A DNA stretch of 57,968 nucleotides, taken from assembly GCA_000403415.2 (NCBI GenBank), contig KE159681.1:576053-634020 (forward strand), given 5' to 3'. The translations under genes and the position numbers were made by a program. The notes under the pieces are model-generated. The model had not been told where the DNA came from. It saw nothing but the letters and a program-made list of their open reading frames with translations, and made no database searches. The number at the start of each line of letters is the position of its first letter. Position 1 is the stretch's first letter. Origin of the DNA: Firmicutes bacterium M10-2. Its GTDB lineage: Bacteria > Bacillota_I > Bacilli_A > Erysipelotrichales > Erysipelotrichaceae. Below, piece after piece: positions 28,229-57,908 of this stretch.

Positions 28229-28229
28229 A

Positions 28230-30220: not shown

Positions 30221-30354
30221 ATTTTCTCCTTTTTATCATTACGATTAAGCAATTACAATTTGCCTCCTCCGGATTTCCTTAAATAACATTTATCATTTTG
30301 TTTTTAAAAGAACAATATATCGGACGCATTCGGTTTAATCCATGACTCATGTGG

Positions 30355-30360
30355 TATACT
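30355..30360 (+). promoter_or_regulatory. Extended -10 (TGGTATACT) before the LytTR regulator
   Basis: TATACT with an upstream TG one base away lies 44 nt before the chosen start at 30404. No convincing -35 is seen, as is usual for extended -10 promoters. Confidence 0.55.
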
Positions 30361-30403
30361 AAAATTAATTAAAATGATTATTATTGATCATAGAAAGAGT
30401 TTT

Positions 30404-31081: not shown

Positions 31082-31391
31082 TCATTTTATTGCCGTATTT
31101 TATACATGTATATTATTTGCGGTATTTTTCGCTATCCTTTACGGAAAACCAACCCAAAAGACGAGTATCCTGATTTTTGGATTTATTGCAGAAGTTATAA
31201 GTACCTACTTTTTAGGGTCGATCGTTCCTCGCTGGTTTCATTGGAATTGGATCTTTGCTTCATGCATCATAACCGGATTGCTCGCTCTATTTATTTGGCA
31301 GGCCTACCGTTCGGATCCGCATATTAGTTTCTGGAGCGTTTTGCTCATTGCGATACTGATCGATTGTTCAGCAAGAGCTTTGCCATTTTGA
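31068..31391 (+). CDS. N-terminal membrane part of an AgrC-like sensor kinase (separated from the kinase by a frameshift)
   Basis: 107 aa with about four membrane helices (IAVFYTCILFAVFFAILY, ILIFGFIAEVISTYFLG, FASCIITGLLALFIW, VLLIAILIDC). The ATG at 31068 has GGAGAG upstream and overlaps the regulator. It ends at 31391 in a frame that differs by one base from the kinase frame beginning at about 31364. Joined, the two give a protein of about 430 residues with six to seven helices plus a GHKL kinase, the normal AgrC-like layout. Taken alone it would be an orphan membrane fragment. Confidence 0.6.
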   Translation: MFTLDHFIAVFYTCILFAVFFAILYGKPTQKTSILIFGFIAEVISTYFLGSIVPRWFHWNWIFASCIITGLLALFIWQAYRSDPHISFWSVLLIAILIDCSARALPF

Positions 31392-34143: not shown

Positions 34144-35394
34144 ATGGAAAGTTTATTTTATAGAAATTATTTGAAATATTTACGAAATGAATTTTATATT
34201 GCGCAATCGGAAATTGCCGATTTTCTTTACTGTTCGATCAGTACGTATTCAAAAATGGAACAAGGAAAAAAAGAAATCAGCTTTAAGGACTTTGAAACAG
34301 TGATCCATTTCTATGAAAAGAAAAATAAGAGATACTCTTTTTGTTTTGATAAAAACAAGAAAAAAGAAGCCAAAGATTTGATTCGTAAATGCATCATTGC
34401 CTTTGTCTATCGCAGTCAAAAAGAAATATTAGATGAATTGGAATCCTATTTGTCCGATCCGTCCAATCTTCATTCTTACGCATTCTTTGAAACCAAACTG
34501 ATCGAAATGATCTATGACTATTTCGCGGATCTTCCATTTCAGGAACGACTGCCCTTTATGCTGGAACATATGAACTTATACGATCATACCGATCAATCTT
34601 TAATTTATGACTTACACGGACTCAGCAAATTAAGAGCCTATGATCAGTCGGCCATTGAATGTTTTCAATCCGCAAAAGCGCTGAGTGTATTGGTCAATAT
34701 TCCCGGGTGGCTGGGACTAATTGATTATCATCTTATCATCACTTATTTGCAATCCATGAATCCTGTAAAAGCATTTCCTTTATTTGAAGAATGCAGTCGG
34801 GAATTCCAAACTGCAGGAGCTCATCGTAGAATTTTGAATTTACGATTCAATCAAGCACAATGCTTTTTAAAACTAGGCTTATTTGAAGAAGCTGATCAGA
34901 TTCACATAAATCTTCTTCAAACGTATGATCAGGTCGATACCGATCGATTCGTAGCGATTATTTCCGTGAATTATTCATGGAGCCAGTTCCTTCAAAAAAA
35001 CTATGCAAATGCGATCAAGCTGTGTCAAAAAGCGCTTGCGCTTCATTCACAGTTTCCCGATCTTTATATTACTTTGTCTTATAGCTTTTATCAGCTGGAC
35101 GAACCCGAAAAAGCTCTTTCTGTCATTGCCGACTTTCGAACACAGGAGCGAACAGATCCTCGATCGAAAATGGTCATGAAATTTCTAGATGTGCTTGAAA
35201 GCTATTTGCTTGAATACGGACCTGCTTTTGAACATCTTGCCAATCAGCTTTTACCACTTCTTACGGAGTGGAAAGATCTTGAAATCGATCTTCTCATCTA
35301 CCAAATGTTGATCGACTATCACAAAGCGAAACAAAACGAACATGCGCTTTGTGATATTCAGGACAAAATGATCCAATTCTTATTGAAAGAATAA
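34144..35394 (+). CDS. HTH-TPR transcriptional regulator (RRNPP/Rgg-like)
   Basis: 416 aa. Residues about 8-62 are a Cro/C1-type HTH (IAQSEIADFLYCSISTYSKM, EQGKKEISFKDFE). Residues about 120-410 are helical TPR-like repeats (ALSVLVNIPGW, AQCFLKLGLFEEADQ, AIKLCQKALALHSQFPDLY, SYSFYQLDEPEKALSVI). This layout is that of peptide-sensing RRNPP regulators (Rgg, PlcR, TprA), though it is longer than most. The ATG at 34144 has only a weak AAAG site. Adjacent genes are an ABC remnant and a LytTR regulator. The cognate peptide is unknown; the divergent frame at 33865-34059 is one candidate. Confidence 0.75.
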   Translation: MESLFYRNYLKYLRNEFYIAQSEIADFLYCSISTYSKMEQGKKEISFKDFETVIHFYEKKNKRYSFCFDKNKKKEAKDLIRKCIIAFVYRSQKEILDELESYLSDPSNLHSYAFFETKLIEMIYDYFADLPFQERLPFMLEHMNLYDHTDQSLIYDLHGLSKLRAYDQSAIECFQSAKALSVLVNIPGWLGLIDYHLIITYLQSMNPVKAFPLFEECSREFQTAGAHRRILNLRFNQAQCFLKLGLFEEADQIHINLLQTYDQVDTDRFVAIISVNYSWSQFLQKNYANAIKLCQKALALHSQFPDLYITLSYSFYQLDEPEKALSVIADFRTQERTDPRSKMVMKFLDVLESYLLEYGPAFEHLANQLLPLLTEWKDLEIDLLIYQMLIDYHKAKQNEHALCDIQDKMIQFLLKE

Positions 35395-35442
35395 AGGATG
35401 GATTGTTTGTTGATCCTCTTCTTGATTTATATAAGTATATAT

Positions 35443-35626
35443 CTATACACTTACGGAAACGATCTTCCCCTTTTCCATGTGGATGATCTCATCGTATTGT
35501 TTTTGATTTTCCAAAATGGGTTTATGGCACACATGGATCAGCGTGATATTCGGATTTTCCTTTTTCATTTTATCCACTCGAAAATTTATAGCTATGGTTT
35601 TATTGTTCCATTCCCGTTATAATGAA
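35443..35626 (-). pseudogene. C-terminal remnant of an ABC transporter ATPase
   Basis: On the minus strand a frame of about 60 codons without a good start ends at 35443. It reads NPNITLIHVCHKP, then NQKQYDEIIHMEKGKIV, which is the H-loop and following strand typical of ABC exporter nucleotide-binding domains. Walker A and B regions are absent. It sits between the HTH-TPR gene and the LytTR regulator, evidence that a transporter gene was lost here. Confidence 0.55.
35618..35623 (+). promoter_or_regulatory. -10 element (TATAAT) of the second LytTR gene
   Basis: Consensus TATAAT 24 nt before ATG 35647, followed by AAAGAAAGGAAATTTG as ribosome site. The -35 is poor (TGGTTT at 17 bp). Confidence 0.55.
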
Positions 35627-35646
35627 AAAAAGAAAGGAAATTTGAT

Positions 35647-36348
35647 ATGTTTAACATCATACTGATTGAGGATGATCCAAACGATCTGGAAAATTTAAAA
35701 ACGATCCTTTCCGATTTTTTAAACGCTCGAGGGCTGGCGTATACTTGCCAAGTATATAACAACTTTTATATGGATCCTTCTATTTTCGAAAAAACAGATC
35801 TTGTTTTTCTTAATGTAAAAGATGACAACACCAATGAAATCGAATTTGGACGTGCACTGAATCGGCAATTCCCAAAAATTACGATCGTGATTACATCGAA
35901 TCATTCTCAAAATCTCATTGACGGTTATACGATACGGGCTGCCCGCTATTTTTTAAAACCGATTGATCCCGATCTTTTTGAATTTGAAATGGATGACGTG
36001 TTCGGAGATTTCGCACTCTCTCAACGTCAAGGGATCATGGATCAAAGACTTGCTCCCTGCAAAGTTTTATTTTCGGAAATCATGTATATTGAATATCAGG
36101 ATCATAAGACGATTGTCGTGTTGAAAGACGGCTTATTTTTGAAAACGGTCATTCCGTTTAAAGAATGGATCTCACTTCTTGAAGAGCAATCTTTTGCTCG
36201 TCCATATCCATGTTTTATCGTCAACTTGCGTTTTGTTGAGTCGATCGGTCCTAAAGATATCATTTTGAGAAACAAAAGAAAAATCCCGCTTTCTAAAGAT
36301 TTCAAGCAGGATTTCATTGCATCTTACAAGCAAATAAAACAAAAATAA
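35647..36348 (+). CDS. LytTR-family regulator with a degenerate receiver domain (Asn at the phospho-acceptor site)
   Basis: 233 aa. The receiver domain (1-120) keeps acidic EDD at residues 8-10, a Ser near 84 and Lys in YFLKPIDPD, but the phospho-acceptor position reads FLNVKDDN, with Asn56 instead of Asp. The C-terminal LytTR domain (about 135-230) includes FSEIMYIEYQDHKT and FIVNLRFVESIGP. No kinase is adjacent. It may work without phosphorylation or respond to a ligand. The gene has its own -10 and terminator, so it is monocistronic and apparently intact. Confidence 0.85.
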   Translation: MFNIILIEDDPNDLENLKTILSDFLNARGLAYTCQVYNNFYMDPSIFEKTDLVFLNVKDDNTNEIEFGRALNRQFPKITIVITSNHSQNLIDGYTIRAARYFLKPIDPDLFEFEMDDVFGDFALSQRQGIMDQRLAPCKVLFSEIMYIEYQDHKTIVVLKDGLFLKTVIPFKEWISLLEEQSFARPYPCFIVNLRFVESIGPKDIILRNKRKIPLSKDFKQDFIASYKQIKQK

Positions 36349-36392: not shown

Positions 36393-37284
36393 CGTTCTAT
36401 TTACTAAGTAACGAACATATTTGTTAACGTATCCTAGACATTTATTCGATAAATACTGCAAATGATAGATTTATATCAAATTATTCCTCCTATCTATTTC
36501 TTAAAATATTCTTCCATTTCATCCAGTGACATATGGCATATCTATTGAAGACATTGAAAGATAAGGGTGATGAGAAACTCTAATAAAAGAGAATTATTTG
36601 ATTAAAGCGGGTGAACGAATGGATAATCAAAAACTGGCCGTCTATGTAAAGTCGGCTCCATTTTGAAAAATATTTTTTATCGTATCCCTCCTTACTGGAT
36701 GCAATTTTCCAAATGACACAAGCCACATTTTTTTGTCATATTCAATTTAGGGGGGGTAAAAAAATATATTCTGCCCTCAATATTTCTCAATATTTTTTCG
36801 TCTCCATTTATATGAAATTTAGGCATATCTTTCCTATCATTTAGCATACCATTAAAGTCTTTTCTATTCTGATTCACCATAAACAAGCACTTCATGCATG
36901 AAAGCTTCATGCGAAAAATATATACAATAAAATAGTTTAAAAATTATACTTTTATTTCTTTGATAGCGATTATTTCACAGTTCTTACATAATATTGCGTG
37001 CTACTTAACTCTCGATTACAGGCTCAGCTCCTGACAATTTAAATCAAAAATCGATTCGCATCAATTGTTTAATCTCTTTTATTTTGCTCCTTTTTCCATA
37101 TCAGACCGTAAAGTTGAATACATACAATATGAACGAATTTCTTCATTTTTGTAAATACTGTTCCGTATTGTACTCCCTCTTCACAAAATATTTATCTAAC
37201 TTTAGAGGCTGATAGAATTAAATAAAAAAGACTGCCGACTTATTTATCAACAGTCTGAAAATCCTTTATTCACTACCTATCTAC
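36393..37284. other. AT-rich intergenic stretch with only gene scraps
   Basis: No convincing gene is seen in about 890 bases. Short scraps include MSLDEMEEYFKK before a stop near 36497 (minus) and ERMDNQKLAVYVKSAPF before a stop near 36668 (plus), both too short to assign. A 72-codon minus frame at 36692-36910 ends in a Cys-rich tail (KKCGLCHLENC) but has no ribosome site. A 7-bp inverted repeat GCATGAA/TTCATGC lies at about 36897-36913. The stretch ends at the left junction of the conjugative element remnant. Confidence 0.5.
37223..37260 (-). terminator. Orphan minus-strand terminator at the edge of the element
   Basis: Stem CAGACTG... / CAGTCT with the T-rich side on the minus strand (TTTTTTATTT). 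No minus-strand gene precedes it, because the Tn916-like fragment begins at about 37285. It may have belonged to a gene displaced by the insertion. Confidence 0.5.
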
Positions 37285-37559
37285 TATTCGAACTCCAGAC
37301 AGACAGTACGGAGTATAAAGCAAAAGGCATGAATGACATTAACGTGGTCATTCAATCTTATAACTATGGTGGTGGCTATACAGACTATGTAGCGAAAAAT
37401 GGAAAAAAGCACAGCTTCAACCTTGCGGAGAATTTCAAAAAGAATAAATCTGGCGGTACAAAAGTGACCTATACGAACCCGATAGCGGTCAATAAAAATC
37501 GTGGCTGGCGGTATAACTACGGAAATATGTTCTATGTGAGCTGGTCAACCAATATCTGA
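37285..37559 (+). pseudogene. cwlT (Tn916 orf14-like) lysozyme-domain fragment
   Basis: The frame opens without a start and reads from LFELQTDSTEYKAKGMNDIN on through VVIQSYNYGGGYTDYVA and NENF-like stretches to GWRYNYGNMFYV. This is the last part of the N-terminal muramidase domain of the Tn916-family CwlT/Orf14 cell-wall hydrolase, which opens a path for conjugation. The first about 150 residues including the catalytic Glu are missing. The frame ends in SWSTNI at 37559, one base out of phase with the next part: LVNQYLTVKQFSN continues in the neighbouring frame. Confidence 0.75.
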
Positions 37560-37561
37560 CC

Positions 37562-37909
37562 GTGAAGCAGTTCAGCAACGAAACGGTACAGGCTGTTATG
37601 AATGAAGCGTTGAAGTATCAAGGCTGGAAGTATGTCTACGGCGGCAGTAACCCGAACACCTCTTTTGACTGTTCTGGTCTTACCCAGTGGTGCTACGGAA
37701 AAGCCGGAATCAGCCTGCCACGAACCGCACAGGCTAGCGATTTGATCTTTTTCCATTCCACCTACAACACCAGCGACTATGTTACCCATGTAGGAATCTA
37801 TGTAGGAAATAATCAGATGTATCATGCCGGAAATCCAATCGGCTATACCGATTTGACCTCTGCCTACTGGCAACAGCACATCATTTGTGCCGGAAGAATC
37901 AAACAATAG
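37562..37909 (+). CDS. NlpC/P60 domain fragment of cwlT (Tn916 orf14-like)
   Basis: 115 codons. The catalytic Cys is in SFDCSGLTQW and the His in DYVTHVGIYVG; the end QQHIICAGRIKQ is the natural C-terminus of the Orf14 family. Between SLPRTAQA and DLIFFHS about 16-17 residues present in relatives (the QYDxxxHxPLSQAxxG segment) are missing in frame. No ribosome site of its own precedes 37562. It was one gene with 37285-37559 and is now split by a frameshift and trimmed by a deletion, so it is probably inactive. Confidence 0.65.
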   Translation: MKQFSNETVQAVMNEALKYQGWKYVYGGSNPNTSFDCSGLTQWCYGKAGISLPRTAQASDLIFFHSTYNTSDYVTHVGIYVGNNQMYHAGNPIGYTDLTSAYWQQHIICAGRIKQ

Positions 37910-37923
37910 AAAGGACTTGAAAT

Positions 37924-38748
37924 ATGTTTAAGAAGAAAGAAAAAACAGAGAAAGCACCTAAGAATAAGAAAGTGCGTACCATGAAAGTCGGGACACATAA
38001 GAAATCTGTCCTGCTGTTGTGGGCGGTGCTTTTAGTAAGCACCAGCTTTGGTGTGTATAAGAATTTTATCGCTATTAACACCCACACGGTACATGAAAAA
38101 GAAATCATTCAGCTAAGATTGAACGATACCAACGCTATTGAGAATTTTGTCAAGAACTTTGCGAAAGCCTACTACTCATGGGATACCAGCAAGGAAGCCA
38201 TTGAAGCAAGGACAACAGAAATCAGTAAATGCCTTACCAAAGAATTGCAGGACTTGAACGCCGATACCATAAGAACGGATATACCAACCAGTGCTACCGT
38301 TACAAATGTGCTGGTCTGGAATGTGGAACAGTTTGGAACGGACGATTTTACCGTTGCCTACGAAGTAGATCAGCAGGTAAAAGAGGGCGAACAGACACAG
38401 GTAGTCACAGAAAACTACATCGTAACTGTCCATGTAGATAAGGACGGTGCAATGGTCATTACCCTGAACCCTACCCTTGCTCCGGCAATACAGAAATCAA
38501 AGTATGAACCGAAAGCACAGGAAGCCGATGTCAGTGGAACTTGCCTACTATGTCAAAGACGGTGTGCTTGCTCCTGTATCCGGCGACTATGTATTTTCAG
38601 AACTGGTAAATCCTGTCTTTACCAAAGACGGCGCAACCTCAAGGCTAGTGTGTCTGTGAAATATCTGGATAACAAGTCGAAAATGACACGAATCTCACAG
38701 TATGAGTTTGTGCTTCATAAGGACGATAACTGGAAGATTGTAGAATAA
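37924..38748 (+). pseudogene. tcpC-like conjugal transfer protein (Tn916 orf13), broken
   Basis: The N-terminus is intact: GAAAGGACTTGAAAT precedes ATG 37924, then basic KKKEKTEKAPKNKKVRTMK, a membrane helix (residues about 29-48) and the first NTF2-like domain to about 205. After EADVS the frame turns into Cys/Arg-rich nonsense. The expected sequence ELAYYVKDGVLAPVSGDYVF appears one frame over (about 38537-38640). The original frame resumes with ASVSVKYLDNKSKM and ends DDNWKIVE at 38748. A deletion of about 80 bp and a second shift near 38640 explain this. TcpC is a bitopic scaffold of the conjugation pore. Confidence 0.8.
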
Positions 38749-38764
38749 ATGATACCACAAAAGA

Positions 38765-38813
38765 CCGTAGCCTGTAAGATAACATTCTAATGTAAAATAC
38801 AAGCTACGGTTTT
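38765..38813. terminator. Terminator between orf13 remnant and the sensor kinase
   Basis: Stem CCGTAGC (38765-38771) / GCTACGG (38803-38809) with an internal ACATT/AATGT stem and TTTT after it. It separates converging genes. Confidence 0.65.
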
Positions 38814-38814
38814 A

Positions 38815-40191
38815 TTATTGATTTTTTATGGGCAAGGAAATAGTCGTGGAAAATCCGTTATTTAATGCACTTGAAATAGATACAGTTCCATTATGAATAG
38901 AAACAATTTCTTTCACAAGAAGAAGCCCTAAACCATGCCGTAAATCTAACCTTTCATCTGTACTTTGCAGATAATGAGGTGTTGACTGTATTTTTTGTAA
39001 TTTTTCTTCTGATATTCCTTTTCCGTTATCACTGATTACCAATATTAAATTGTTTCCATTTACAGCTAAACTAACTGAGATTGTACAACCATTTTCATTA
39101 TGATTGATACTGTTAGAAATAATATTTTGTATTGCTCGATATAACAATCTTTCATCTCCTATAATAGAGATTTGTTCTGTATTACAATCTAAATTTAATT
39201 CAAAATCAAATTTATTATTTAGATTGTTATTTAGATACTCAACGACAATTTCTCGTATCATTTTACATAAATGAACAGGCGTTTGTTTAACTGGCTGAAC
39301 ATTATAATTTAATTGACTCACAAGGTTCAAATCCTGAACCAAATTTTTAATTTTAACACTTTGGATTTTGATAATATTTGCTTGTTTTCTGGTGTTTTCC
39401 CCAACATCTAATGAAGAAGTTATTCTATCTGCATACCCCACAATCATGGAAAGAGGTGTTCGTATATCATGTGAAACGCCACTTATCCAGTTTGCTCTCG
39501 CTTTATTTTGTTTGTCTAATTGCAATGATGTTTCGTTAATATGTTTTCCAACATCTTCCAATTCCCCATTTATATTAAGGACAACCGTTTCGCCATGAGA
39601 TAGCTTATCTAATCCATTGAGAATAGGAGCAACTTTCAGCATTACATTTCGTTTTGATAAATAATATACAATAAATAGAATAGTTACATTTGATGCCAAC
39701 ATAATAAAAAGAATAATGGGAGTTTTCTGCATTACTGATAAAGGAAGATAGTTAGTCACAATTTTTGAATAACTGTTCCTTGGATAACCTAATACCAATA
39801 AATCATTTTCTTGCTTCCATGTGAATACGGGATAATTTTTGATATACCCCTTAGAAAAGGTGGCAACGTCTTGTAATGAATATTTAAGCGGTACTTCTTC
39901 AGGTAGATTGTATTGCCAGATTACATTACCGCTATTATCTATTACAATTCCCCAGATGTTGTTTGTAATTAAATCTTTTTGACACCTATTATTTAATATA
40001 TATTTTCCATCTTGGATAGTAAGATTATTAGATACTTTTTCTAATGTTTGGACAGGATTATTTTCGTTTATACCGTTGACAGTACCATTAAAAGTTAGGA
40101 AGAAAAGCAGTAAATCAAAACCCACTATAAGGATTATTACTGACAAGTATATAAATAAATGTTTACTAATAAATTTCCCAAAATTCCGCAT
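38815..40191 (-). CDS. Sensor histidine kinase of the immunity module
   Basis: 458 aa. Two membrane helices (residues about 10-33 and 157-178) flank an extracellular sensor of about 120 residues. HAMP-like linker, then HisKA with phospho-His241 in GVSHDIRTPLSM, N box NIISNSINHN, G1 box DNGKGI and G2 box LRHGLGLLLVKEI. It is the partner of the response regulator at 40194-40901 (2-nt gap). Such pairs next to MutE/MutG-like ABC permeases sense antimicrobial peptides (lantibiotics) in Firmicutes. The ligand here is inference. Base composition is visibly more AT-rich than the window's core genes. Confidence 0.88.
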   Translation of the reverse strand: MRNFGKFISKHLFIYLSVIILIVGFDLLLFFLTFNGTVNGINENNPVQTLEKVSNNLTIQDGKYILNNRCQKDLITNNIWGIVIDNSGNVIWQYNLPEEVPLKYSLQDVATFSKGYIKNYPVFTWKQENDLLVLGYPRNSYSKIVTNYLPLSVMQKTPIILFIMLASNVTILFIVYYLSKRNVMLKVAPILNGLDKLSHGETVVLNINGELEDVGKHINETSLQLDKQNKARANWISGVSHDIRTPLSMIVGYADRITSSLDVGENTRKQANIIKIQSVKIKNLVQDLNLVSQLNYNVQPVKQTPVHLCKMIREIVVEYLNNNLNNKFDFELNLDCNTEQISIIGDERLLYRAIQNIISNSINHNENGCTISVSLAVNGNNLILVISDNGKGISEEKLQKIQSTPHYLQSTDERLDLRHGLGLLLVKEIVSIHNGTVSISSALNNGFSTTISLPIKNQ

Positions 40192-40193
40192 TA

Positions 40194-40901
40194 TTATAAT
40201 CTGCTCTCCACATTTATTTTATATCCCAATCCTTTAACAGTTATTAGTGATTTTGGTTTTGAGGGGGTAATTTCAATTTTTTCTCTTATGCGTCGAATAT
40301 GAGCAAGCAGCGAATTTCCATATCCAAATGGGTTGTCGCCCCATACAGCTTCACAAAGAGCGTCTATTGTTACAATATAGTTAGCATTTCGTACAAGTGC
40401 TTCTAAAATATCATGTTCTTTTGCAGTAAGAGGTAAAATCTTATCTTCCCATATAACCTGTGCATTAGCTAAATCAATTTTACAATCACGTAATTCTATA
40501 AGTGGACTATCTTCCTTATAACATCTGCGTAATACAGCATTTAGGCGAAATATAAGTTCTTTTGGCATAAAGGGTTTTGTTATATAATCATCAGCTCCCA
40601 ACCCAAATCCAGAATATTTATCCTGTATATCATCTTTTGCGGTCAAAAATATCACTGGAATATTAGTGAAACTTCTTAGTGTTTCCATAAGTTCAAAACC
40701 GTTTCCATCTGGAAGCATGACATCTAATATAGCTATATCTGGTTTTTCCTGTTGACAGATTTCCAAAGCTGTTTTTACACAATCAGCGGTAATAATATTT
40801 AAAAAATTTTCATCTTCTAATATGGTTATAAGCATACTTCTTAAACATTCTTCATCATCAACTATCAATATTTTTTTTGATTTTAAGTATGTATCATTCA
40901 T
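40194..40901 (-). CDS. OmpR-family response regulator of the immunity module
   Basis: 235 aa. Receiver with VDDEE near residue 15, phospho-acceptor Asp60 in ILDVMLPDGNGFE, Thr in FLTAKDD and Lys in TKPFMPKELIF. The C-terminal winged helix contains NPFGYGNSLLAHIRRIREKI and ends GLGYKINVESRL. It diverges from the ABC operon at 41062, whose upstream region holds three helically phased TGTAAkGT repeats, the likely binding sites. Confidence 0.9.
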   Translation of the reverse strand: MNDTYLKSKKILIVDDEECLRSMLITILEDENFLNIITADCVKTALEICQQEKPDIAILDVMLPDGNGFELMETLRSFTNIPVIFLTAKDDIQDKYSGFGLGADDYITKPFMPKELIFRLNAVLRRCYKEDSPLIELRDCKIDLANAQVIWEDKILPLTAKEHDILEALVRNANYIVTIDALCEAVWGDNPFGYGNSLLAHIRRIREKIEITPSKPKSLITVKGLGYKINVESRL

Positions 40902-40979
40902 TTATTTGTCGCGCCCTTTTTGCAGTTTATTTATCTCATTATAACATTTAAAAAAAAGTTAAACAGTCATTTTCTCATT

Positions 40980-41020
40980 TGTAAGGTAAATGTAAGGTAG
41001 AGAGAATGTGGCTGTAATGT
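40980..41020 (+). promoter_or_regulatory. Three in-phase direct repeats, candidate response-regulator operator
   Basis: TGTAAGGT at 40980-40987 and 40991-40998, then TGTAATGT at 41013-41020. Start-to-start distances are 11 and 22 bp, one and two helical turns. TATATT at 41029-41034 follows as a likely -10 with no good -35, which fits an activator-dependent promoter. Confidence 0.7.
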
Positions 41021-41061
41021 AGGTGTTTTATATTGTGAGTATGAAGAGAGGAGCAAAAATT

Positions 41062-41826
41062 ATGAAAAACATGATTGAAACTAAAAATTTAACAAAAACA
41101 TACAAAGAGTTTACCGCCGTAGACCATGTGTCTTTACACATTAAGAAAGGTAGTATTTACGGATTTCTGGGTCCAAATGGTGCTGGAAAATCTACAACTA
41201 TGAAAATACTTTTGGGATTAACTGCACCTACCGATGGAGAGTTCCAAATAGATAACTTGACTTTTCCGAATGATCGCGTTCAAATTTTGAAAAAAATCGG
41301 TTCTTTTATTGAATCCCCGTCATTTTATCCAAACTTAACAGGTAAAGAAAATCTTGATATTATTCGTAGAATTTTAGGTCTTCCTGCGTCAAGTGTTGAT
41401 GAAGCGTTAGAATTAGTAGGATTATCTGAATTTGGTAATCGCTTGGCGAAAAAATATTCTTTAGGAATGAAACAACGTTTAGGGCTTGCTTCCGCTTTGC
41501 TTGGAGAACCACCCATTTTAATTTTAGATGAACCAACAAATGGATTAGACCCAGCAGGTATTCACGAAATTCGCAATCTCGTTAAATCACTGCCGAAAAG
41601 ATATGATTGTACGGTTCTAATCTCATCACATATGCTGTCAGAAATTGAACTGTTAGCTGATGATATTGGTATTTTGAATCATGGAAGATTACTATTTGAG
41701 GGAAGTCTTGAAGATTTGAAATTTACGGCACATGAAGCAGGATTTGAAAATGATAATTTAGAAGAAATGTTTTTATCCATGATTGATGAGGATAACACAA
41801 ACAGAAAGCAGAGGTTAAAATTATGA
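41062..41826 (+). CDS. Lantibiotic-immunity-type ABC transporter ATP-binding protein
   Basis: 254 aa. Walker A GPNGAGKST, signature YSLGMKQRLG, Walker B ILILDEPTNG. Residues ESPSFYPNLTGKENL and the whole layout fit the LanF-type ATPases (such as NisF, MutF, CprA) that expel lantibiotics from the membrane. ATG 41062 has GAGAGGAG upstream; in-frame upstream starts lie over the promoter region. It overlaps the first permease by 4 bp. The resistance function is inferred from family and context. Confidence 0.88.
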   Translation: MKNMIETKNLTKTYKEFTAVDHVSLHIKKGSIYGFLGPNGAGKSTTMKILLGLTAPTDGEFQIDNLTFPNDRVQILKKIGSFIESPSFYPNLTGKENLDIIRRILGLPASSVDEALELVGLSEFGNRLAKKYSLGMKQRLGLASALLGEPPILILDEPTNGLDPAGIHEIRNLVKSLPKRYDCTVLISSHMLSEIELLADDIGILNHGRLLFEGSLEDLKFTAHEAGFENDNLEEMFLSMIDEDNTNRKQRLKL

Positions 41827-42548
41827 GAAATTTGACCATAGAATTGAAAAAATGTAAACGCACCGGAATATTGGAAGTTTTACCGATTATTGGACTTCTT
41901 GGTGCCTTATACTCTTTTGCAAATTTTATAGTTCGCAAAGATGTTTTGTTAAACTTACCGCTTCCACCTATGGATGTTTTGCTGACACAGCTTTACGGAA
42001 TGATTATGGTTCTTAATATGTTTGGCATTATCGTAGCGACAACTTTAATATATAATATCGAATTTCAAGGAAGTGCAATTAAAAAGATGTATATGCTTCC
42101 TTTTAAGACATCATCTATTTTCAAAAATAAATTTTATATATTGTTTGTTTTGCTCGCTGTTTGTATCGTCTTGCAGAACGGAGCTTTGTGTATTATTGGA
42201 AATATATTTTTGCCCAGTGGAACTTTTGAATTATTAACACTTGTTAAATATACAGGATATTGCTTTGTTTCAACTTTACCAGTATTAGCATTTATGCTCT
42301 TGGTATCATCACGATGTGAAAATATATGGTTTACATTAGGTATTGGCGTGGCAGGATTTTTTAGCGGTATGGCAATGTCGCTTTCAGATATAGCTATATT
42401 TCTTATTAACCCATTTGTACTAATGATGAAACCAGCGGTAGCTTCTACTGCTAGTATTGATATGAAAGTTTTAATTTTAGGCTTTGTTGAAACAATCATA
42501 TTCTTCATGGTTGGCTGGTATTTAGGCAAAATAAAGCATTATGAATAA
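41823..42548 (+). CDS. Lantibiotic-immunity ABC permease, MutE/EpiE-like
   Basis: 241 aa, six membrane helices. N-terminal LTIELKKCKRTG, NIEFQGSAIKKMYMLP and SSRCENIWFTLGIGVAGFF are typical of the LanE permease family. Start overlaps the ATPase stop (ATGA). It partners with the next permease to form the LanFEG complex; that assignment is from family resemblance. Confidence 0.82.
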   Translation: MRNLTIELKKCKRTGILEVLPIIGLLGALYSFANFIVRKDVLLNLPLPPMDVLLTQLYGMIMVLNMFGIIVATTLIYNIEFQGSAIKKMYMLPFKTSSIFKNKFYILFVLLAVCIVLQNGALCIIGNIFLPSGTFELLTLVKYTGYCFVSTLPVLAFMLLVSSRCENIWFTLGIGVAGFFSGMAMSLSDIAIFLINPFVLMMKPAVASTASIDMKVLILGFVETIIFFMVGWYLGKIKHYE

Positions 42549-42561
42549 AGGAGACAATCGT

Positions 42562-43326
42562 ATGTCAATTATTGAATTGTTAAAAATAGAATTTATGAAA
42601 GTGAAACGGTCTATGATTTTACCTTTGCTTTTAATTCCACCTATTTTAGTTGTGGTTTCTGGTGTTTTCAGTATCAGTATGTATATGACACCAGAATATA
42701 CAAATGCTTGGTTGGCAATGTTTATTCAAAGTGCATTGCTTTTTGGTTATTATTTACTTCCGTTTTCAATGGTAGTTGTATGCGTTATGATTGCTAACAG
42801 AGAAACAAAGAATAATGGTATATTAAAAATGCTTGCTTTACCCATCAGTAAGGGAAAACTTGCCTTAACAAAATTCTTTGTGTTATTGAGTTTTTTAGCA
42901 ATCCAGTTACTTATCTTTTTTATCTCATTCGTCATTGCAGGCATTATCGCTACTAAAATAATGAATGTAACAGAATCTATTCCTGTCCTTTATTTATTAA
43001 CGTGGACATTAAAATTATTTATGACTATGATTCCAGCTATTTCTTGTATGTGGGCAATTACCATACTGTTTGAAAAACCACTATTATCTATGGGATTAAA
43101 CTTACTTTTGATAATTCCGGGGGTTTTGGTTGCTAATACACCTTTATGGATAGTATATCCTTATTGTTATAGTGGTTATGTTGTGTCAAACGCATTACAT
43201 ACAGTAACAACGACAGGTACAGGAAATACACTATCATTATTTTCGTTTGTACCGTGTGCTGTAATTATATCAGCCTTTGCGATATGTGTTTCTATTAAAT
43301 ACTTTGGAAGAAAAGAAATGAGGTAA
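42562..43326 (+). CDS. Lantibiotic-immunity ABC permease, MutG-like
   Basis: 254 aa, six membrane helices. N-terminal IELLKIEFMKVKRSMILPLLL and NRETKNNGILKMLALPISKG match the LanG permease family. AAAGGAG before ATG 42562 decides the start against the in-frame ATG at 42541, which overlaps the previous gene's end. The third gene of the module. Confidence 0.82.
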   Translation: MSIIELLKIEFMKVKRSMILPLLLIPPILVVVSGVFSISMYMTPEYTNAWLAMFIQSALLFGYYLLPFSMVVVCVMIANRETKNNGILKMLALPISKGKLALTKFFVLLSFLAIQLLIFFISFVIAGIIATKIMNVTESIPVLYLLTWTLKLFMTMIPAISCMWAITILFEKPLLSMGLNLLLIIPGVLVANTPLWIVYPYCYSGYVVSNALHTVTTTGTGNTLSLFSFVPCAVIISAFAICVSIKYFGRKEMR

Positions 43327-43332
43327 TATAAA

Positions 43333-43617
43333 ATGAAAAAAAGTAAATTAAGCGTTGTTGCATTGGTCATTTCGCTATTACCATTTATCACATTATTGAT
43401 TTCCCTTTTTTCAGGAAAAATTACAGGTGGGCTTCAAATGGGATTAACAGCATTAAATGTAATTTCAATATTATTGGGTTTAGGTCTTTCAATTTCAGTA
43501 GTAAAAAACCCAAAACGTAGAGATGTATTTTCAATTATTTCTTTATGTATTTGTGGCTTTTTGGGGCTACTTATGGTTGGTATTTTAATTTTGGGCTTAA
43601 TATTCACTTTTATGTAA
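43333..43617 (+). CDS. Small three-helix membrane protein of the immunity operon
   Basis: 94 aa with three hydrophobic helices (residues about 5-27, 33-54, 65-92) and short basic loops (KNPKRRD). Starts 6 nt after the MutG-like gene and 9 nt before the receiver pseudogene, so it is in the same transcript. ATGAGGTAAT gives a spaced ribosome site. I know no family; a membrane-embedded immunity or accessory peptide is plausible. Confidence 0.65.
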   Translation: MKKSKLSVVALVISLLPFITLLISLFSGKITGGLQMGLTALNVISILLGLGLSISVVKNPKRRDVFSIISLCICGFLGLLMVGILILGLIFTFM

Positions 43618-43626
43618 GAGGTGCTT

Positions 43627-43980
43627 ATGGGAAATATATTGATTGTAGAAGATTAAGCTGCTTATAGAGAATTATTATGTAAAGTTCTCAAAGGTAAAGG
43701 ATATAAAGTAAAAGGTGTCGGCTCAGTAAAATCTGCTCTAAATGAAATAGAAAAGAATATTTATGATTTCATTTGTACTGATTATAATATCCCAGACGAT
43801 ACAGGTACAGCATTACTTCAACATGAATTCACAAAAAATATACCCATCTGCATAATGACAACTTCTGTTGATAGACACATATTTAATATGGCAAAGTCCT
43901 TAGGTGCTGTTGAGTGTTTTGATAAAGCAACATTTGATTTTGTGGATGATTTATGTAATTGCATAGAGAATAAAAAGTAA
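43627..43980 (+). pseudogene. CheY-like single-domain receiver with an in-frame stop at codon 10
   Basis: AGAGGTG precedes ATG 43627. The frame reads MGNILIVED, then TAA at 43654-43656, then continues uninterrupted for 107 codons (AAYRELLCKVLKGKGYKV ... DFICTDYNIPDDTGTALL ... IMTTSVD ... CFDKATFDF) to 43980. It is a complete receiver domain: acidic pocket at residues 8-9, phospho-acceptor Asp in CTDYNIPDD, Thr/Ser in MTTS and Lys in FDKAT. GAA to TAA at the codon after the acidic pair is a one-base change. No DNA-binding domain, so it was a stand-alone receiver. Confidence 0.75.
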
Positions 43981-44053
43981 CATATTAAAATTTATTGCCT
44001 GCGGAGCAGATCAACAAATAAGTGTTAAAAAATCTGTATAGAAAAACAGAGAA

Positions 44054-44078
44054 AATAAGAAGCAAATCACTTCTTATT
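44054..44078 (-). terminator. Hairpin after the orf9-like stub
   Basis: Perfect 9-bp arms AATAAGAAG (44054-44062) / CTTCTTATT (44070-44078), followed on the minus strand by TTTTCTCTG. The stop codon of the stub at 44067 lies in the loop. Confidence 0.5.
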
Positions 44079-44150
44079 CTCTCTGGCTTCTCTGATTGCC
44101 AGTCCTAAAAGACGAAAATCAAAGCTGTGCGTATCTTTCTTTTTTCTCAT
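44067..44150 (-). pseudogene. N-terminal stub of the Tn916 orf9-like HTH repressor
   Basis: 27 codons starting at ATG 44150 and ending at a TGA. The sequence begins MRKKKDTHSFDFR and continues LLGLAIREARENKK. Tn916-family Orf9 regulators begin almost the same way (MRKKxxxYDFRxxGLAIKEAR) and run to about 117 residues. The HTH itself (TREQVGxxIxIDPRYL) is missing, so it is a truncated remnant. Its place (opposite strand, after the cargo) is that of orf9 in Tn916. Confidence 0.7.
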
Positions 44151-44461
44151 TTTTAATCACCTAGCATGAGTTTATACTTCGTGTTATGTGATTAGAATGT
44201 GTTAAAAACTCATATTATATGCACTACAAATTCGATAAAAACATTGCCTCGTTCGGTAAATTGAGTATTCCGCCCAAACTGAGCCACCCTTTCCGGGACA
44301 GAGAGCCATTTTTTCCCAATGACCATTCCGCCCTAAGAGCCACTTTTCCCCCAATCGCAATCTTTATATTTTTTAGACATATGCACCTTCTCTGCCTCCT
44401 CTGTATGATTTTTTTGCAGACTCCGTCTGCGAAAGAATCTGTATGTAAGGAGGTATTTTTT

Positions 44462-45610
44462 ATGCAGAATTCTAAATCTATTCTTCTCGAGTTTTCTAGT
44501 GGTAACAGTCAGAGAGGCATTTCTAAAAAACTTGGCGTTTCAAGAAACTCCGTCAGCACCACTCTGAAAGCTTTCCATTCTTCAGGTTGCTCTCTCGAGC
44601 ATCTTCTTTCGCTATCTAATGATGAGATTCAGGAGCTTCTTTTTCCTGATGAAATCGGCAGAGACTATCTGCAACCAGATTATGAATCCATCAATCAAGA
44701 ACTGTGTAAACCAGGTATGACGCTTGGGTTCCTTTTTGAACGGTATGTTTCATCCTGTCGTGCTGCAGGACAGAAGCACTGTCAAAAAAGTGCATTCTAT
44801 GAAAACTACAGTCGTTACATAAGCACCAATAACGTCACAAAGCATCTTATTCATAAGCCAGGACGGGAGATGATGGTTGATTGGGATGGCAAGACCCTTA
44901 AGGTGGATGATCTGGCTACAGGCCGCACTGTCAAAGCCTATCTGTTCATTGCGACTCTTCCATACAGTATGATGTCCTTCGTTAAAGCTTACCCTGATAT
45001 GAAACAGAACAGCTTTCTTGATGGTCACATCAAAGCGTACGAGTACTTTGGCGGCGTCACTCCTGTACTGGTTCCAGACAATTTGAAAACTAGTGTTATC
45101 GAAAACAAGAAATATAACGAGCCGATTTTGAATCATAGCTACGAGGAAATGGCTGATTATTATGGAGCATCGATCGTTCCTGCCAGAGTAAGAAAGCCAC
45201 AGGATAAAGCTGCTGTTGAAGGATCTGTTCGCCAGATAACACAATGGATCTTCCCATGGCTGGATGGTATGCGCTTCTTCAGCTTTGAAGAGCTCAACAA
45301 AGCCATTTTCAGGCTCATAGACCAGTTTAATGAGCTCCAGTTCCAGAAACGCATAGGATCAAGAAGGTCTGTTTTTGAGGAAGAAGAAAAGAAATGGCTC
45401 AAGCCTCTCCCTTCTATCCCTTTTGAGCTGGCGACATGGAAAACCTCAATAGTTCAAAATAATTATCATATCTCGACGGATCATCAAAACTATTCATGTC
45501 CATATAAATACGTACGAAAAAGAGTGGATGTAAAGATAACGAATGAAAAAGTCGAGTGTTACTATCAAGGGAGGGATACTTATCAGTTCTCACAAACGGC
45601 TAAAAGGTAG
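44462..45610 (+). CDS. istA: IS21 transposase IstA, C-terminally frameshifted
   Basis: 382 codons. N-terminal HTH (NSQRGISKKLGVSRNSVSTT), then an integrase-core domain with MVDWDGK, VLVPDNLKT and DKAAVEGSV supplying the DDE triad. ATG 44462 has AAGGAGG upstream, and the longer frame to 44219 runs through the IS end. The frame stops at 45610. The expected continuation SSHKRLKGRKNQYSTMPKHM lies in the next frame (about 45583-45660), so it is shifted near 45585, then cut off at the deletion that joins istB. Probably inactive. Confidence 0.78.
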   Translation: MQNSKSILLEFSSGNSQRGISKKLGVSRNSVSTTLKAFHSSGCSLEHLLSLSNDEIQELLFPDEIGRDYLQPDYESINQELCKPGMTLGFLFERYVSSCRAAGQKHCQKSAFYENYSRYISTNNVTKHLIHKPGREMMVDWDGKTLKVDDLATGRTVKAYLFIATLPYSMMSFVKAYPDMKQNSFLDGHIKAYEYFGGVTPVLVPDNLKTSVIENKKYNEPILNHSYEEMADYYGASIVPARVRKPQDKAAVEGSVRQITQWIFPWLDGMRFFSFEELNKAIFRLIDQFNELQFQKRIGSRRSVFEEEEKKWLKPLPSIPFELATWKTSIVQNNYHISTDHQNYSCPYKYVRKRVDVKITNEKVECYYQGRDTYQFSQTAKR

Positions 45611-45672
45611 AAAAAATCAGTACTCTACCATGCCGAAACATATGCCAAAAAGCCATCAGTATTCCGAATGGA

Positions 45673-45822
45673 ATGGAAAAAGGATGGATCAAAAGAATCA
45701 AAGATTCGACGCAGGCGGATGCGATCGTAGACAGGATAGTAAACACAAGCCATCTGGTAAAGCTTGAAGGTCCTTCTATGAGAGAATTGTATAATACCTT
45801 GAACACCATTCGAGAAGAATAA
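45673..45822 (+). pseudogene. istB: IstB C-terminal fragment
   Basis: 49 codons ending at 45822. ADAIVDRIVNTSHLVKLEG then PSMRELY is the C-terminal end of the IS21 helper ATPase IstB (family pattern ADAILDRLVHxAHRIELKGxSMR). Walker A and B regions are absent. It follows the istA frame remnants without a gap, so the deletion joined the 3' part of istA to the 3' end of istB. Confidence 0.65.
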
Positions 45823-45877
45823 TCGCCTTCGGCGTATGCTCCGCATAAGACAATAATTATTATATAAATTAAATAAT

Positions 45878-45914
45878 GGCGTCAGCTTTTAGGCATTGGC
45901 TGACGCCTGTTTTT
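45878..45914 (+). terminator. Terminator inside the IS right part
   Basis: Stem GGCGTCAGC (45878-45886) / GCTGACGCC (45899-45907) followed by TGTTTTTTG. Confidence 0.8.
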
Positions 45915-46225
45915 TGTGGAACACACTATAATTACGAGTGGTTCTTTATTCCAGAATAGGTGGCTCTATTTTTTCGGAATATTCACCCACATAAACGTGA
46001 ACGCTCTTAAAAGTCTATTATATTCCAATGTATAAATTATTATCTATTGACTTTAAAACCCAATTTCTTTCATCTCATTACTTGTTGCATAATCCAGGAT
46101 GTAGTCTATATAATTCAATGCTCTACCATCCTCCTTTAAGAGGATTACACTTTTATCATGGATCAGCTAGCATATTTTTGAACAAGTGAAATAATAAAAC
46201 GAGTATCTTTTGCGTGCCTTAAGGT

Positions 46226-46270
46226 ATTAAAAAAGCTAGAATGTGCTTTATATATAGCACTTCTAGCTTT
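46226..46270 (-). terminator. Terminator of guaA
   Basis: Long stem AAGCTAGAAGTGCT / AGCACATTCTAGCTT (minus strand, arms about 46256-46269 and 46233-46247) followed by TTTTTTAAT, directly after the guaA stop. The 46003-46225 stretch to the left of it holds nothing I can assign. Confidence 0.88.
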
Positions 46271-46276
46271 TATTTT

Positions 46277-47818
46277 TTATTCGAACTCAATCGTTCCCGG
46301 AGGCTTGCTCGTAATGTCATACAGAACACGATTTACGTGATCGACTTCGTTTACGATCCGGTTTGCTACTTTATCCAGCACTTCATACGGAATTCTTGCC
46401 CAGTCAGCTGTCATTCCGTCAATACTTGTTACGGCACGAATCGCAACCGCATAATCATACGTGCGCTCATCTCCCATGACACCGACACTGCGCATATTTG
46501 TTAATGCAGTGAAGTATTGCCAAATATCCCGTTCAAGACCGGCTTTCGCTACTTCTTCTCTTAAGATCGCATCACTATCCTGAACAATTTTGATCTTTTC
46601 TTCTGTCACATCTCCGAGAATACGGATTCCCAGTCCCGGTCCCGGAAACGGTTGTCGCCAGACCATTTCATCAGGTAGTCCAAGCTCCGTACCCAATTCG
46701 CGAACTTCATCCTTGAACAATGTGTTCAACGGTTCGATGAGCTGAAATTGCATATCTTTCGGCAAGCCGCCTACATTGTGATGGGACTTGATCGTTTGAG
46801 CGGTTTTTGTTCCCGACTCAATCACATCCGTATACAATGTTCCTTGGGCCAGCCACTTGATATCTTCGCCTGCCGTAAGCTTTTTAACCTCTTCGTCAAA
46901 TGTATAAACAAATTCGTTTCCGATGATCTTGCGCTTCTTTTCAGGATCAGTAACCCCAGCCAGTTTTCCGAGAAAACGATCTTTCGCATCGATCTTCACA
47001 AGATGGATATTCATGTTTTTGCCAAACGTTTCCATGACCGATTCCGCTTCGCCTTTGCGCAGCAAACCATGATCAATAAACATACAAATCAATTGATCAC
47101 CGATTGCTTCATGAAGCAAGGCTGCCACAACACTTGAATCGACCCCTCCGGAAAGTCCAAGCAGCACTTTATCCGAACCGACTTTTTCTTTGATCTTTTC
47201 TTTCTCCACTTCAATGAAGTTTTTCATCGACCAATCGTTTTTCGCGTTGCAGATCTTAAATACGAAATTTTTCAAAATATCATTTCCGTATTCGGTATGA
47301 CGAACTTCCGGATGGAACTGAAGACAATACATCTTCTTTTCGACATTGGCTGCTGCCGCATATGGACAATTCTCGCTTTTAGCCACACCGACAAACCCTT
47401 CGGCAAGCTCTGTCACTTTGATTCCGTGACTCATCCAAACCGTTTCTTTTTCCGGCAGGCCGGCAAAAAGATCGGTCGGATCGAACACATCGATCTCCGT
47501 ACGTCCGTATTCCGAAGACCCGGCAGGTTCCACCTTTCCTCCCATCATAAACTGAATCATTTGCATTCCATAGCAAATCCCTAAGATCGGAATCCCGCTC
47601 TCCAAGATTGCCGGATCGCATTTTGGTGCATCCTCTTCATACACACTATTCGGACCACCTGAAAAAACGATTCCTTTGACATCGCCAAGCGCTTTGATTT
47701 GCTCTAATGTCATTTCATTGGAATGGAGTTCCGAATAAACGCCGAATTCACGAATTCGACGCGCAATCAATTGATTGTATTGACTTCCAAAATCAAGGAC
47801 AACAATTTTATCTGACAT
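46277..47818 (-). CDS. guaA: GMP synthase (glutamine-hydrolysing)
   Basis: 513 aa, the usual length. It aminates XMP to GMP using glutamine and ATP. The N-terminal class I amidotransferase has the Cys in GICYGMQ and His/Glu in [12 protein letters not shown]. The ATP-pyrophosphatase domain has the P-loop [10 protein letters not shown]. The C-terminal dimerisation domain ends with [16 protein letters not shown] precedes the ATG. The gene is monocistronic, with its own promoter and terminator. Confidence 0.98.
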
Positions 47819-47843
47819 GATTTATCTCCTTATACCTATCGGT

Positions 47844-47852
47844 ATCATACCA
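47844..47852 (-). promoter_or_regulatory. Extended -10 (TGGTATGAT) of guaA
   Basis: On the minus strand TATGAT with TG one base upstream, 25 nt before the guaA ATG. TTCAGA at 17 bp is a weak -35. No guanine riboswitch fits in the short leader. Confidence 0.6.
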
Positions 47853-47905
47853 TAATTCATTCATTTTCTGAATATTCGATCACTTCCGAAAATTTATCGC
47901 ATTGA

Positions 47906-48778
47906 TCATTCCTGCTCCCCTTTGTCTTTCTTTAAATTTAAAAAGCTCCAAAGTTTTTTTGATGAGCTCAGTTTCAAATTTTCTTCAAAATTGCGTTTAA
48001 AAAACAAACTGTACAACACATCGAAAATAAATTGAAGGGAAACCATACTTGAAAATTGGCCGATCTTTTCGGAGGTCGGTGCCTCTTTTGAAGCAATGAT
48101 CAAATGATAGTCGCAATATTTTTTATACGTATTGTCCCAAAGCGAAGAAATCAGCAGAACAGGATGTCCATGCTCTTTCAAATATTCCAGAATCGGCCTG
48201 ACTTCCCGTATACGCCCCGCATATGTGATGACAATCGATAATGTATCTCTTCTTGTCTGAAGCACAGCCAGCTCCTGATCATATACTTCTGTAAGGACAT
48301 GCACCCGTTTGCCAAGCCTGGCCATATCGAATTTAAAATCCAACGCTAAATTTCGATATCTACTTGAAGTATATAAATTTATATCCTGTGCTTGTTCAAA
48401 TCGATTGATAATCAGGCGTACTGTATTGAGATCAATCAGCGAAGCCGTTTCATCAATTGTTTCTTTTTTCAACGAAGCCAGCGTTTGAATGACTTCATAA
48501 TCCGTATTGTCCGCACAAAACGGCTCATCGTAATTCGCCACATCCTGATCAAGTCGAGGCAATTCCTGCATGATTTGAAATCTCAGATCCGCATATCCTC
48601 CGACTTCTAATTTCTCGCATACCCGGTATACCGTCGATAAGGATGTATTTGCTTTTTTCGCCAATTCCCGACTTGTCATTTCGATCACAAAAGTCGGATC
48701 GGATAAGATCAATTGGACTAATTGCTTTTCGGCTTGGGTCCAACCTTGCATATACTCTAATTTTGAAAATATCGACAT
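47906..48778 (-). CDS. RpiR/MurR-family transcriptional regulator
   Basis: 290 aa. The N-terminal HTH_6 domain (residues 1-75) includes MTSRELAKKANTSLSTVYRV. The C-terminal SIS domain (about 115-255) includes INLYTSSRYRNLALDF and TLSIVITYAGRIREV, which binds phosphosugars in this family. ATG 48778 is preferred over TTG 48790. Target genes are not evident: the neighbours are guaA and tsaD, neither a sugar pathway, so it probably acts elsewhere. Confidence 0.85.
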   Translation of the reverse strand: MSIFSKLEYMQGWTQAEKQLVQLILSDPTFVIEMTSRELAKKANTSLSTVYRVCEKLEVGGYADLRFQIMQELPRLDQDVANYDEPFCADNTDYEVIQTLASLKKETIDETASLIDLNTVRLIINRFEQAQDINLYTSSRYRNLALDFKFDMARLGKRVHVLTEVYDQELAVLQTRRDTLSIVITYAGRIREVRPILEYLKEHGHPVLLISSLWDNTYKKYCDYHLIIASKEAPTSEKIGQFSSMVSLQFIFDVLYSLFFKRNFEENLKLSSSKKLWSFLNLKKDKGEQE

Positions 48779-48899
48779 ACTCTTTCTCAACTCTCTGTTT
48801 CTTCGTCCTTATTTTCTGACAAAATAATTTCAATATTCATCGCCGTTCTATGCATTTTCCGCATTTCCGGATACAATAAAATCATCTTACAGTTACGTG

Positions 48900-48918
48900 T
48901 CAGCAGAAATCCTGCTGA
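48900..48918. other. Perfect hairpin after tsaD
   Basis: GTCAGCAG / CTGCTGAC with a 5-nt loop, 5-6 nt past the tsaD stop. The T run is on the plus-strand side (TTTTTATT), not downstream of tsaD, so it is not a textbook terminator for the minus-strand operon. Confidence 0.5.
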
Positions 48919-54791: not shown

Positions 54792-54908
54792 AGACCCGGC
54801 AACGTGCTATTTTCGCAGGCGCAAGGCCAACTATCGTCGCCGCTGGGGTGCTTAACTGCTGAGTTCGGAATGTATTCAGGTGTCTCCATCCCGCCTTCGT
54901 CACCGGAT
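54792..54908 (-). rRNA. rrf: 5S ribosomal RNA
   Basis: About 116 nt on the minus strand, from TCCGGTGACGAAGGCGGGAT to the matching 3' end CACGTTGCCGGGT. Conserved CCGAACTCAGCAGTTAAGC and the terminal stem are present. Exact ends are uncertain by a few bases. Confidence 0.95.

Positions 54909-54990: not shown

Positions 54991-57908
<2,918 letters not shown>

Follow-up and report, generated by a model that had tools for sequence, protein, structure and literature searches.

The 3′ end of guaA is the insertion site of Tn5801-like elements, which are flanked there by 11-bp repeats (PMC4844618). Tn5801 and ICE_SmiB6_guaA share a Tn916-type conjugation module, this guaA 3′-end target, and a size of ~25 kb, with an 11-bp direct-repeat core in the case of Tn5801 (PMC4844618, PMC4701971). 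Tn5386 of Enterococcus faecium is reported to be a Tn916-like element with probable lantibiotic ATP-binding cassette (ABC) transporter genes (PMC2530867), and CTn1 and CTn1-like elements of Clostridioides difficile carry accessory ABC transporters predicted to resist antimicrobial peptides (PMC3158075). Both LcrSR-LctFEG of Streptococcus mutans and CprABCK-R of C. difficile are resistance operons made up of a kinase, a regulator, an ATPase, and two permeases; the peptides listed for the former are lacticin 481 and nukacin ISK-1 (PMC5786555). Here we describe a stretch (37285-44150) within a window of 57,968 nucleotides, the whole of the DNA analysed, from Firmicutes bacterium M10-2 (contig KE159681.1, positions 576,053 to 634,020). 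The stretch is best read as the remnant of a guaA-specific, Tn5801-like integrative and conjugative element (ICE) with a Tn916-type conjugation module, located at the 3′ end of guaA. The account that we favour as a whole, and consider likely, is that this ICE decayed and that its cargo, an inducible lantibiotic-defence module, mostly stayed open.

Compared with these systems, the locus is familiar in its parts. Tn5801 has tet(M) where the decayed copy in the window has a lantibiotic-type module, a likeness by description and not by sequence; Tn5386, CTn1, and the two resistance operons are likewise likened by description. Tn5386, unlike the window element, is said to be without orf9, as is CTn1 (PMC7288454), and guaA goes unmentioned in the available text on CTn1 (PMC3158075). 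Unlike LcrSR-LctFEG and CprABCK-R, the window module is divergently arranged, comes with a conserved promoter-region box and a 94-amino-acid companion protein, and lies on a mobile element. Element and module both belong to known kinds (compare Tn5386 and CTn1), and we claim no priority for the combination of guaA, ICE, and lantibiotic-type genes.

The reading is supported by an intact relative. A search with the second permease of the module returned 48 loci in named genomes (the “relatives”), and one of these, L002 in genome G407 (Lachnospiraceae UBA1683), holds what the preliminary description of the stretch had proposed to look for: all seven cargo genes of the stretch, likewise placed between orf13 and orf9 and 98.6% identical to the window over 5550 bp. 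Its orf14 and orf13 are 91.6% identical to the window over 1267 bp, its orf9 is intact, and downstream of orf9 lie sigma-like, HTH_16, and integrase genes, followed by guaA. With matches of this length to a single intact element, the similarities in the window are not due to chance. From its coordinates the L002 element spans ~25.0 kb, and it encodes a Rep_trans relaxase, an FtsK-type protein, an AAA_10 VirB4-like ATPase, TcpC, the helix-turn-helix (HTH) protein Orf9, and a tyrosine integrase with Arm-DNA-bind_4 and Phage_integrase domains. The element and its target in the window comprise the following features:

37285-37325, plus strand: left terminus of the element, a 41-bp match at 95% to the left end of the intact element on the L002 contig; 37285-37295 is the 11-bp attachment core.
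37316-37909, plus strand: orf14 fragment (lysozyme-like plus NlpC/P60), frameshifted and with deletions.
37924-38748, plus strand: orf13 (TcpC; TpcC/TcpC match 2e-28), broken by an internal deletion and an out-of-frame stretch.
44067-44150, minus strand: orf9 (HTH regulator), middle deleted; the intact L002 orf9 has HTH and DBD_HTH matches.
44262-45984, plus strand: IS21-like remnant, ends approximate (transpos_IS21, 211.6 bits), sitting where L002 has orf7/orf8/xis/int-type genes.
46278-46288, plus strand: 11-bp attachment core at the guaA 3′ end.
46277-47818, minus strand: guaA, the target gene; its protein is 55.5% identical to that of L002 guaA and 92.8% to that of a genus mate.

We read this remnant as a decayed guaA-type ICE because of its position at the guaA 3′ end, the 11-bp core repeat, the left terminus, and the presence of the intact relative at guaA. 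The core 11-mer, TATTCGAACTC, occurs only twice in the window, at 37285 and at 46278, the latter at the very end of guaA, so that the remnant lies at the guaA 3′ end between 11-bp direct repeats. Position 37285, where the studied stretch starts, is itself the left terminus of the element, as judged from the 41-bp match and the core; the junction of this terminus with orf14 falls, by eye, inside 10 bases common to both sides. The next intact gene beyond the IS21-like remnant is guaA. Between the repeats, orf14, orf13, cargo, and a reversed orf9 follow one another in the same order as in L002, with backbone genes that are broken in the window and intact in L002. A Rep_trans relaxase, an FtsK-type coupling protein, and an AAA_10 VirB4, all present in L002, were not found in window positions 37001-48900, so this is a remnant rather than a working ICE; no tyrosine integrase was found in the remnant.

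The preliminary description had placed the stretch in the Tn916 family, with the cargo in the tet(M) position. The order of genes bears this out: L002 has the same order, and nine of its conjugation genes, from orf21 to orf13, are colinear with the Tn916-type segment of Enterococcus faecalis plasmid pARO1.1 (49-85% amino acid identity; a tenth gene, a second orf18-like one, matches the same pARO1.1 place at 29%), where tet(M) and its leader directly follow orf13. The conjugation module is indeed of Tn916 type, but the element is guaA-specific and Tn5801-like, not Tn916 itself. Tn916 proper was rejected as a source, given the insertion at guaA and an orf14/orf13 DNA identity of only ~64%, over half of the query, to enterococcal Tn916-type copies; to the three best plasmid records this DNA is 70-72% identical. 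A further genome, G359 (of the same taxonomic order), has nearly the same backbone (94-100% amino acid identity in eight of nine matched genes from orf20 to orf13, the orf18-like gene at 87%, orf20 partial), with a different cargo between orf13 and orf9 and a different integrase. Just outside the attachment repeat in the window, at 36692-36910 on the minus strand, is a broken frame that by eye resembles a protein in this G359 cargo.

Two observations weigh against this identification. The expected place of orf9 in the pARO1.1 segment gave no match, the only similarity being 33% over 54 residues elsewhere. In addition, 46128-46277, where the end of the element is expected, matches the sequence following guaA in a genus mate, G392. 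This needs stacked elements or later replacement; we read it as a probable sign that elements inserted at guaA more than once, so that ours was either displaced outward or had its right end exchanged. An empty guaA site in a genus mate was not obtained, as G392 carries its own insertions there and G259 was without candidates in either search. The G392 assembly holds two versions of the region beside guaA (L090 and L091), identical over 7072 bp and then differing, and one of the two has a second attachment core; insertions at the end of guaA seem to be frequent in this genus.

The debris permits a partial history of the decay. The broken plus-strand orf14-like and orf13-like genes of the preliminary description were recovered as Lysozyme_like (37329-37559, 1.6e-20) and NLPC_P60 (37562-37909, 5.4e-21) pieces, which retain orf14 residues 121-335 of the intact L002 protein, and as a TcpC match covering only profile positions 1-128 of 231. 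What had been described as a minus-strand orf9-like stub proved to be more than that: the gene start and upstream flank match window 44077-44160 and the downstream flank and last ~19 bases match 44018-44085, so that, with both gene ends and flanks present, an internal deletion is indicated; at the protein level, residues 1-24 are kept. The IS21-like remnant has inverted ends near 44266 and 45981, with 15 of 20 positions matching. An ICE that held its cargo between orf13 and orf9 would once have integrated at guaA. Its left arm would then have been deleted along with portions of orf14, orf13, and orf9, some of these deletions occurring at short repeats; the right arm, including the integrase, would also have been lost, and an IS21-like insertion now occupies its place. 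Most cargo genes stayed open. The cargo and its regulatory sites are as follows:

38815-40191, minus strand: sensor histidine kinase (HisKA, HATPase_c), with two helix-like membrane stretches ~117 residues apart by hydropathy; 98% amino acid identity to L002.
40194-40901, minus strand: OmpR-type response regulator (Response_reg, Trans_reg_C).
40981-40997, plus strand: GTAAGG-N5-GTAAGG box, the presumed response-regulator site, upstream of the ATPase gene.
41029-41034, plus strand: putative -10-like site, TATATT, at the conserved TAt.aT position in an alignment of 42 intergenic regions.
41062-41826, plus strand: transporter ATPase (LanF/LctF/CprA-like; TIGR03740, 254.5 bits) with E-loop GSFIE.
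41823-42548, plus strand: permease 1 (LanE-like; ABC2_membrane_4, 5.6e-7).
42541-43326, plus strand: permease 2 (LanG-like; ABC2_membrane_4, 4.9e-26; MutE/EpiE model, 47.2 bits, below its cut-off of 145.2).
43333-43617, plus strand: 94-amino-acid protein with three helix-like stretches by hydropathy; no family matched.
43627-43980, plus strand: single-domain receiver with an early in-frame stop; 119 amino acids and intact in L002.

The start codon of the ATPase gene was chosen from the sequence, and the searches used starts at 41023 or 41065. All of the genes that the preliminary description assigned to the cargo are present; the kinase and regulator, however, lie on the minus strand, divergent from the plus-strand transporter, and the receiver is broken. 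Homologs of the 94-amino-acid protein follow the transporter in part of the relatives, making it a frequent transporter companion. Receiver homologs, 32-37% identical to the L002 receiver, were seen downstream of the transporter in three of four relatives checked (L006, L017, and L019 near 11590), and a receiver may accompany the module repeatedly.

The divergent promoter region carries a conserved signal. For comparison we assembled 42 such regions. Of these, 40 come from the relatives (of 48) whose regulator gene immediately precedes the ATPase gene and points away from it (leaving out L004, L010, L026, L029, L030, L043, L047, and L049), and the remaining two from the window and from a Lactococcus plasmid. 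A pair of GTAAGG half-sites spaced 11 bp apart reaches a score of 12 of 14 or better in 40 of the 42 regions and 11 in the other two, compared with ~1.2% of shuffled regions (n = 2100) reaching 11 and ~0.1% reaching 12. In L033 the best-scoring position is elsewhere, with a near-perfect copy of the box just upstream, and the box is also present in L004 and L043, which were examined separately. Faecalicatena faecalis has its regulator pair ~48 kb away from the transporter, and a box adjoins each of them. These observations are strong circumstantial evidence that the box is the site of the regulator, tempered by the facts that the motif was derived from the window’s own region and that the relatives are non-independent, several Gardnerella rows being nearly alike. 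The genome-wide count of exact motifs—one site in the 2.4-Mb host genome and two for the reversed control; 43 sites in 31 of the 33 genomes given for the 48 relatives, and 27 for the control—was set aside as evidence, being weak alone; it is the position of the site that counts. A narrow literature search found no published description of the GTAAGG box, and it is absent from the main text of one C. difficile regulator paper, which is no proof of absence.

The preliminary description had suggested that the element decayed with its transporter and two-component genes open, and that selection may be keeping the cargo. Alternatively, the whole stretch, cargo included, could be dead, with the intact look of the cargo reflecting recent arrival or exchange. 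Consistent with this alternative, synonymous divergence of the cargo from L002 is low (0.027), the receiver is broken, and a Roseburia copy of the module is itself decaying. If disruptions were spread evenly over backbone and cargo, however, we would not expect the pattern observed: the six compared cargo genes (all but the receiver) are open and show no change in length relative to L002, whereas the ~1.8 kb of backbone genes contain five deletions or frameshifts, counted by eye on the alignments, and the compared cargo genes contain none (P ~0.0012). Substitutions point the same way. Between the window and L002, over both branches, the six genes differ by 27 synonymous and 21 non-synonymous changes (ratio 0.21). 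Polarised with Blautia, the window branch has 15 synonymous and 17 non-synonymous changes and the L002 branch 11 and 4, with one left unassigned; the ratio of non-synonymous to synonymous rates (dN/dS) on the window branch is about 0.31. Its 17 non-synonymous changes compare with a neutral expectation, from the observed mutation spectrum, of 23.7 of 32 (P = 0.007). In addition, the box and the -10-like site are the same as in L002, all five intergenic differences lying outside them. Against continued selection, the window branch is proportionally richer in replacement changes than the L002 branch (in the raw counts above), and it takes in time that preceded the decay, for which reason selection is supported rather than proven. 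The broken receiver shows no sign of constraint (2 synonymous and 7 non-synonymous changes; 0.024 per non-synonymous site, pN, and 0.027 per synonymous site, pS). We consider it unlikely, though worth keeping in view, that the entire stretch is dead; that selection is keeping the cargo, with the receiver lost, is moderately supported by the substitution counts and the distribution of disruptions. The earlier suggestion holds to that extent, and fails for the receiver.

As to function, the module would act as an inducible pump. The membrane kinase may sense a lantibiotic of the lacticin 481/nukacin kind; the OmpR-type regulator, judging from conservation, would bind both GTAAGG half-sites in the divergent promoter region and raise expression of its own operon and of the pump; and, by homology, the ATPase with its two permeases would expel the peptide from the membrane. 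Several features liken the transporter to the LanFEG/CprABC type. It has one ATPase and two different ABC-2 permeases of 241 and 261 amino acids, within or near the range of about 240-260 of known LanFEG/CprABC permeases (PMC5786555), next to a kinase and an OmpR-type regulator and with no biosynthesis genes. These two permeases are unlike the single permease of ~620-650 amino acids with a large extracellular domain that defines BceAB-type transporters (same source). Of 188 families, TIGR03740 (lantibiotic protection) is the best match of the ATPase, and the protein is 53% identical to the ATPase of the nukacin-type cluster on plasmid pPI-1 of Staphylococcus warneri, whose record names a lacticin 481 family lantibiotic; we take this to be nukacin ISK-1. 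Unlike the window module, pPI-1 is a producer cluster. The link is weakened by the TIGR03740 score, which stays below the cut-off of 309.75, by the MutE/EpiE score of permease 2, also under its cut-off, and by permeases only 22-24% identical to those of pPI-1. The pPI-1 ATPase, from a producer, likewise falls under the TIGR03740 cut-off (267.6). The E-loop was dropped as a mark of LanF: 46 of the 47 ATPases that were examined have it (L030 is a fragment), but so does BcrA.

A concrete substrate is suggested by Kineothrix alysoides (L043:2958-11069), which has what looks like a complete lanthipeptide cluster of the lacticin-481-like kind, its precursor gene being duplicated. Besides the two copies of this short peptide gene, the cluster contains a kinase and regulator, LanM (426 bits against a cut-off of 304), an exporter with a C39 peptidase, the box, an FEG transporter of the same kind, and a 98-amino-acid protein; LanM, the C39 transporter, and the FEG order are shared with pPI-1. 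The ATPase is 76% identical to that of the window, and the precursor core presumably resembles lacticin 481.

Could the transporter instead handle another drug, such as bacitracin, or be a housekeeping BcrA-like exporter? BcrA is 45% identical to the ATPase and shares its E-loop, and a C. difficile study compares cargo of this sort both with BcrAB and with a nisin/gallidermin transporter (PMC3158075). The pPI-1 ATPase is nonetheless closer (53%), the module has two permeases with a kinase and regulator, and a scan of ten proteins showed neither a BcrR-like activator nor a BcrD-like phosphatase, which would accompany BcrAB in a BcrABD system (compare pARO1.1). In Kineothrix, moreover, a module of this kind serves a LanM-type cluster, and we regard a different substrate as rather improbable. 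That the module is immunity to a lantibiotic made by this host, as its place inside the Kineothrix producer cluster might suggest, is hardly credible, since no LanC-like domain (PF05147) was found in the host genome (99.8% complete) and, of the 5 of 48 relatives’ genomes with such a domain, only L043 has it close to the module by coordinates. Because of this lack of a LanC-like domain in the host, resistance is more likely than self-immunity, and the pump module probably protects its host from lantibiotic peptides of neighbours.

The cargo and its vehicle appear to have had separate careers. Synonymous divergence from L002 is ~0.027 in the six cargo genes vs ~0.155 in orf14/orf13, a difference that implies different histories, and the cargo was probably exchanged between elements. 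An ICE of Blautia massiliensis has related cargo after orf13 (72-93% amino acid identity) without the receiver, with extra transporter and regulator homologs and a different integrase, and in Fusicatenibacter (L007) the module is near a MobA-type relaxase and a Tn916-type integrase. Homologs of orf14 and orf13 occur near the module in at least 2 of the 48 loci, a lower bound given that some loci are short contigs. A copy outside any mobile context, which the preliminary description had named as telling against a mobile cargo, did turn up once: in Roseburia inulinivorans (L108), a kinase-regulator-FEG block 97-98% identical to the window module sits between lexA-like and rsfS-like genes (read from translations), with no element gene found in its 19-kb stretch. 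This single case is outweighed by the intact L002 element. It does count against the idea of lasting selection, one deletion truncating its kinase and regulator and permease 2 being frameshifted; since so close a copy decays, the module is not always kept.

Elsewhere in the window, many transporter and regulator genes lie in the left flank of the remnant. At 16420-19724 on the minus strand, a further transporter is paired with a two-component system (kinase and ATPase by Pfam, permease and regulator by eye), and its ATPase is 39% identical to that of the cargo. At 26987-31081, an ATPase 36% identical to the cargo’s is accompanied by two large permease-like proteins (by eye) and an adjoining LytTR-type regulator, and is followed by a sensor-kinase-like protein (31364-32344, by eye). 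An HTH/TPR regulator resembling Rgg by eye and then a LytTR regulator occupy 34144-36348, left of the remnant. At the other end, the high GC content is explained by the 5S and 23S ribosomal RNA genes at 54794-57908 on the minus strand.

More broadly, we see an even chance that one autoregulated, box-marked lantibiotic-defence cassette moves between plain chromosomes of Bacillota and Bifidobacteriaceae, a Lactococcus plasmid, clusters that produce lacticin-481-like peptides, and ICEs of more than one family (the guaA type and one with a MobA-type relaxase), and that here it has outlived its vehicle and become domesticated, with one regulated site in the genome. Defence against microbial peptides may in this way travel through gut communities, as ICE cargo that can be exchanged and can outlast the dead element. 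Such modules could be searched for by means of the conserved box, and the Kineothrix cluster leads to a concrete guess at their substrates, namely lacticin 481/nukacin-type peptides. Such modules may have a bearing on how gut commensals respond to lantibiotics used as drugs or food additives.

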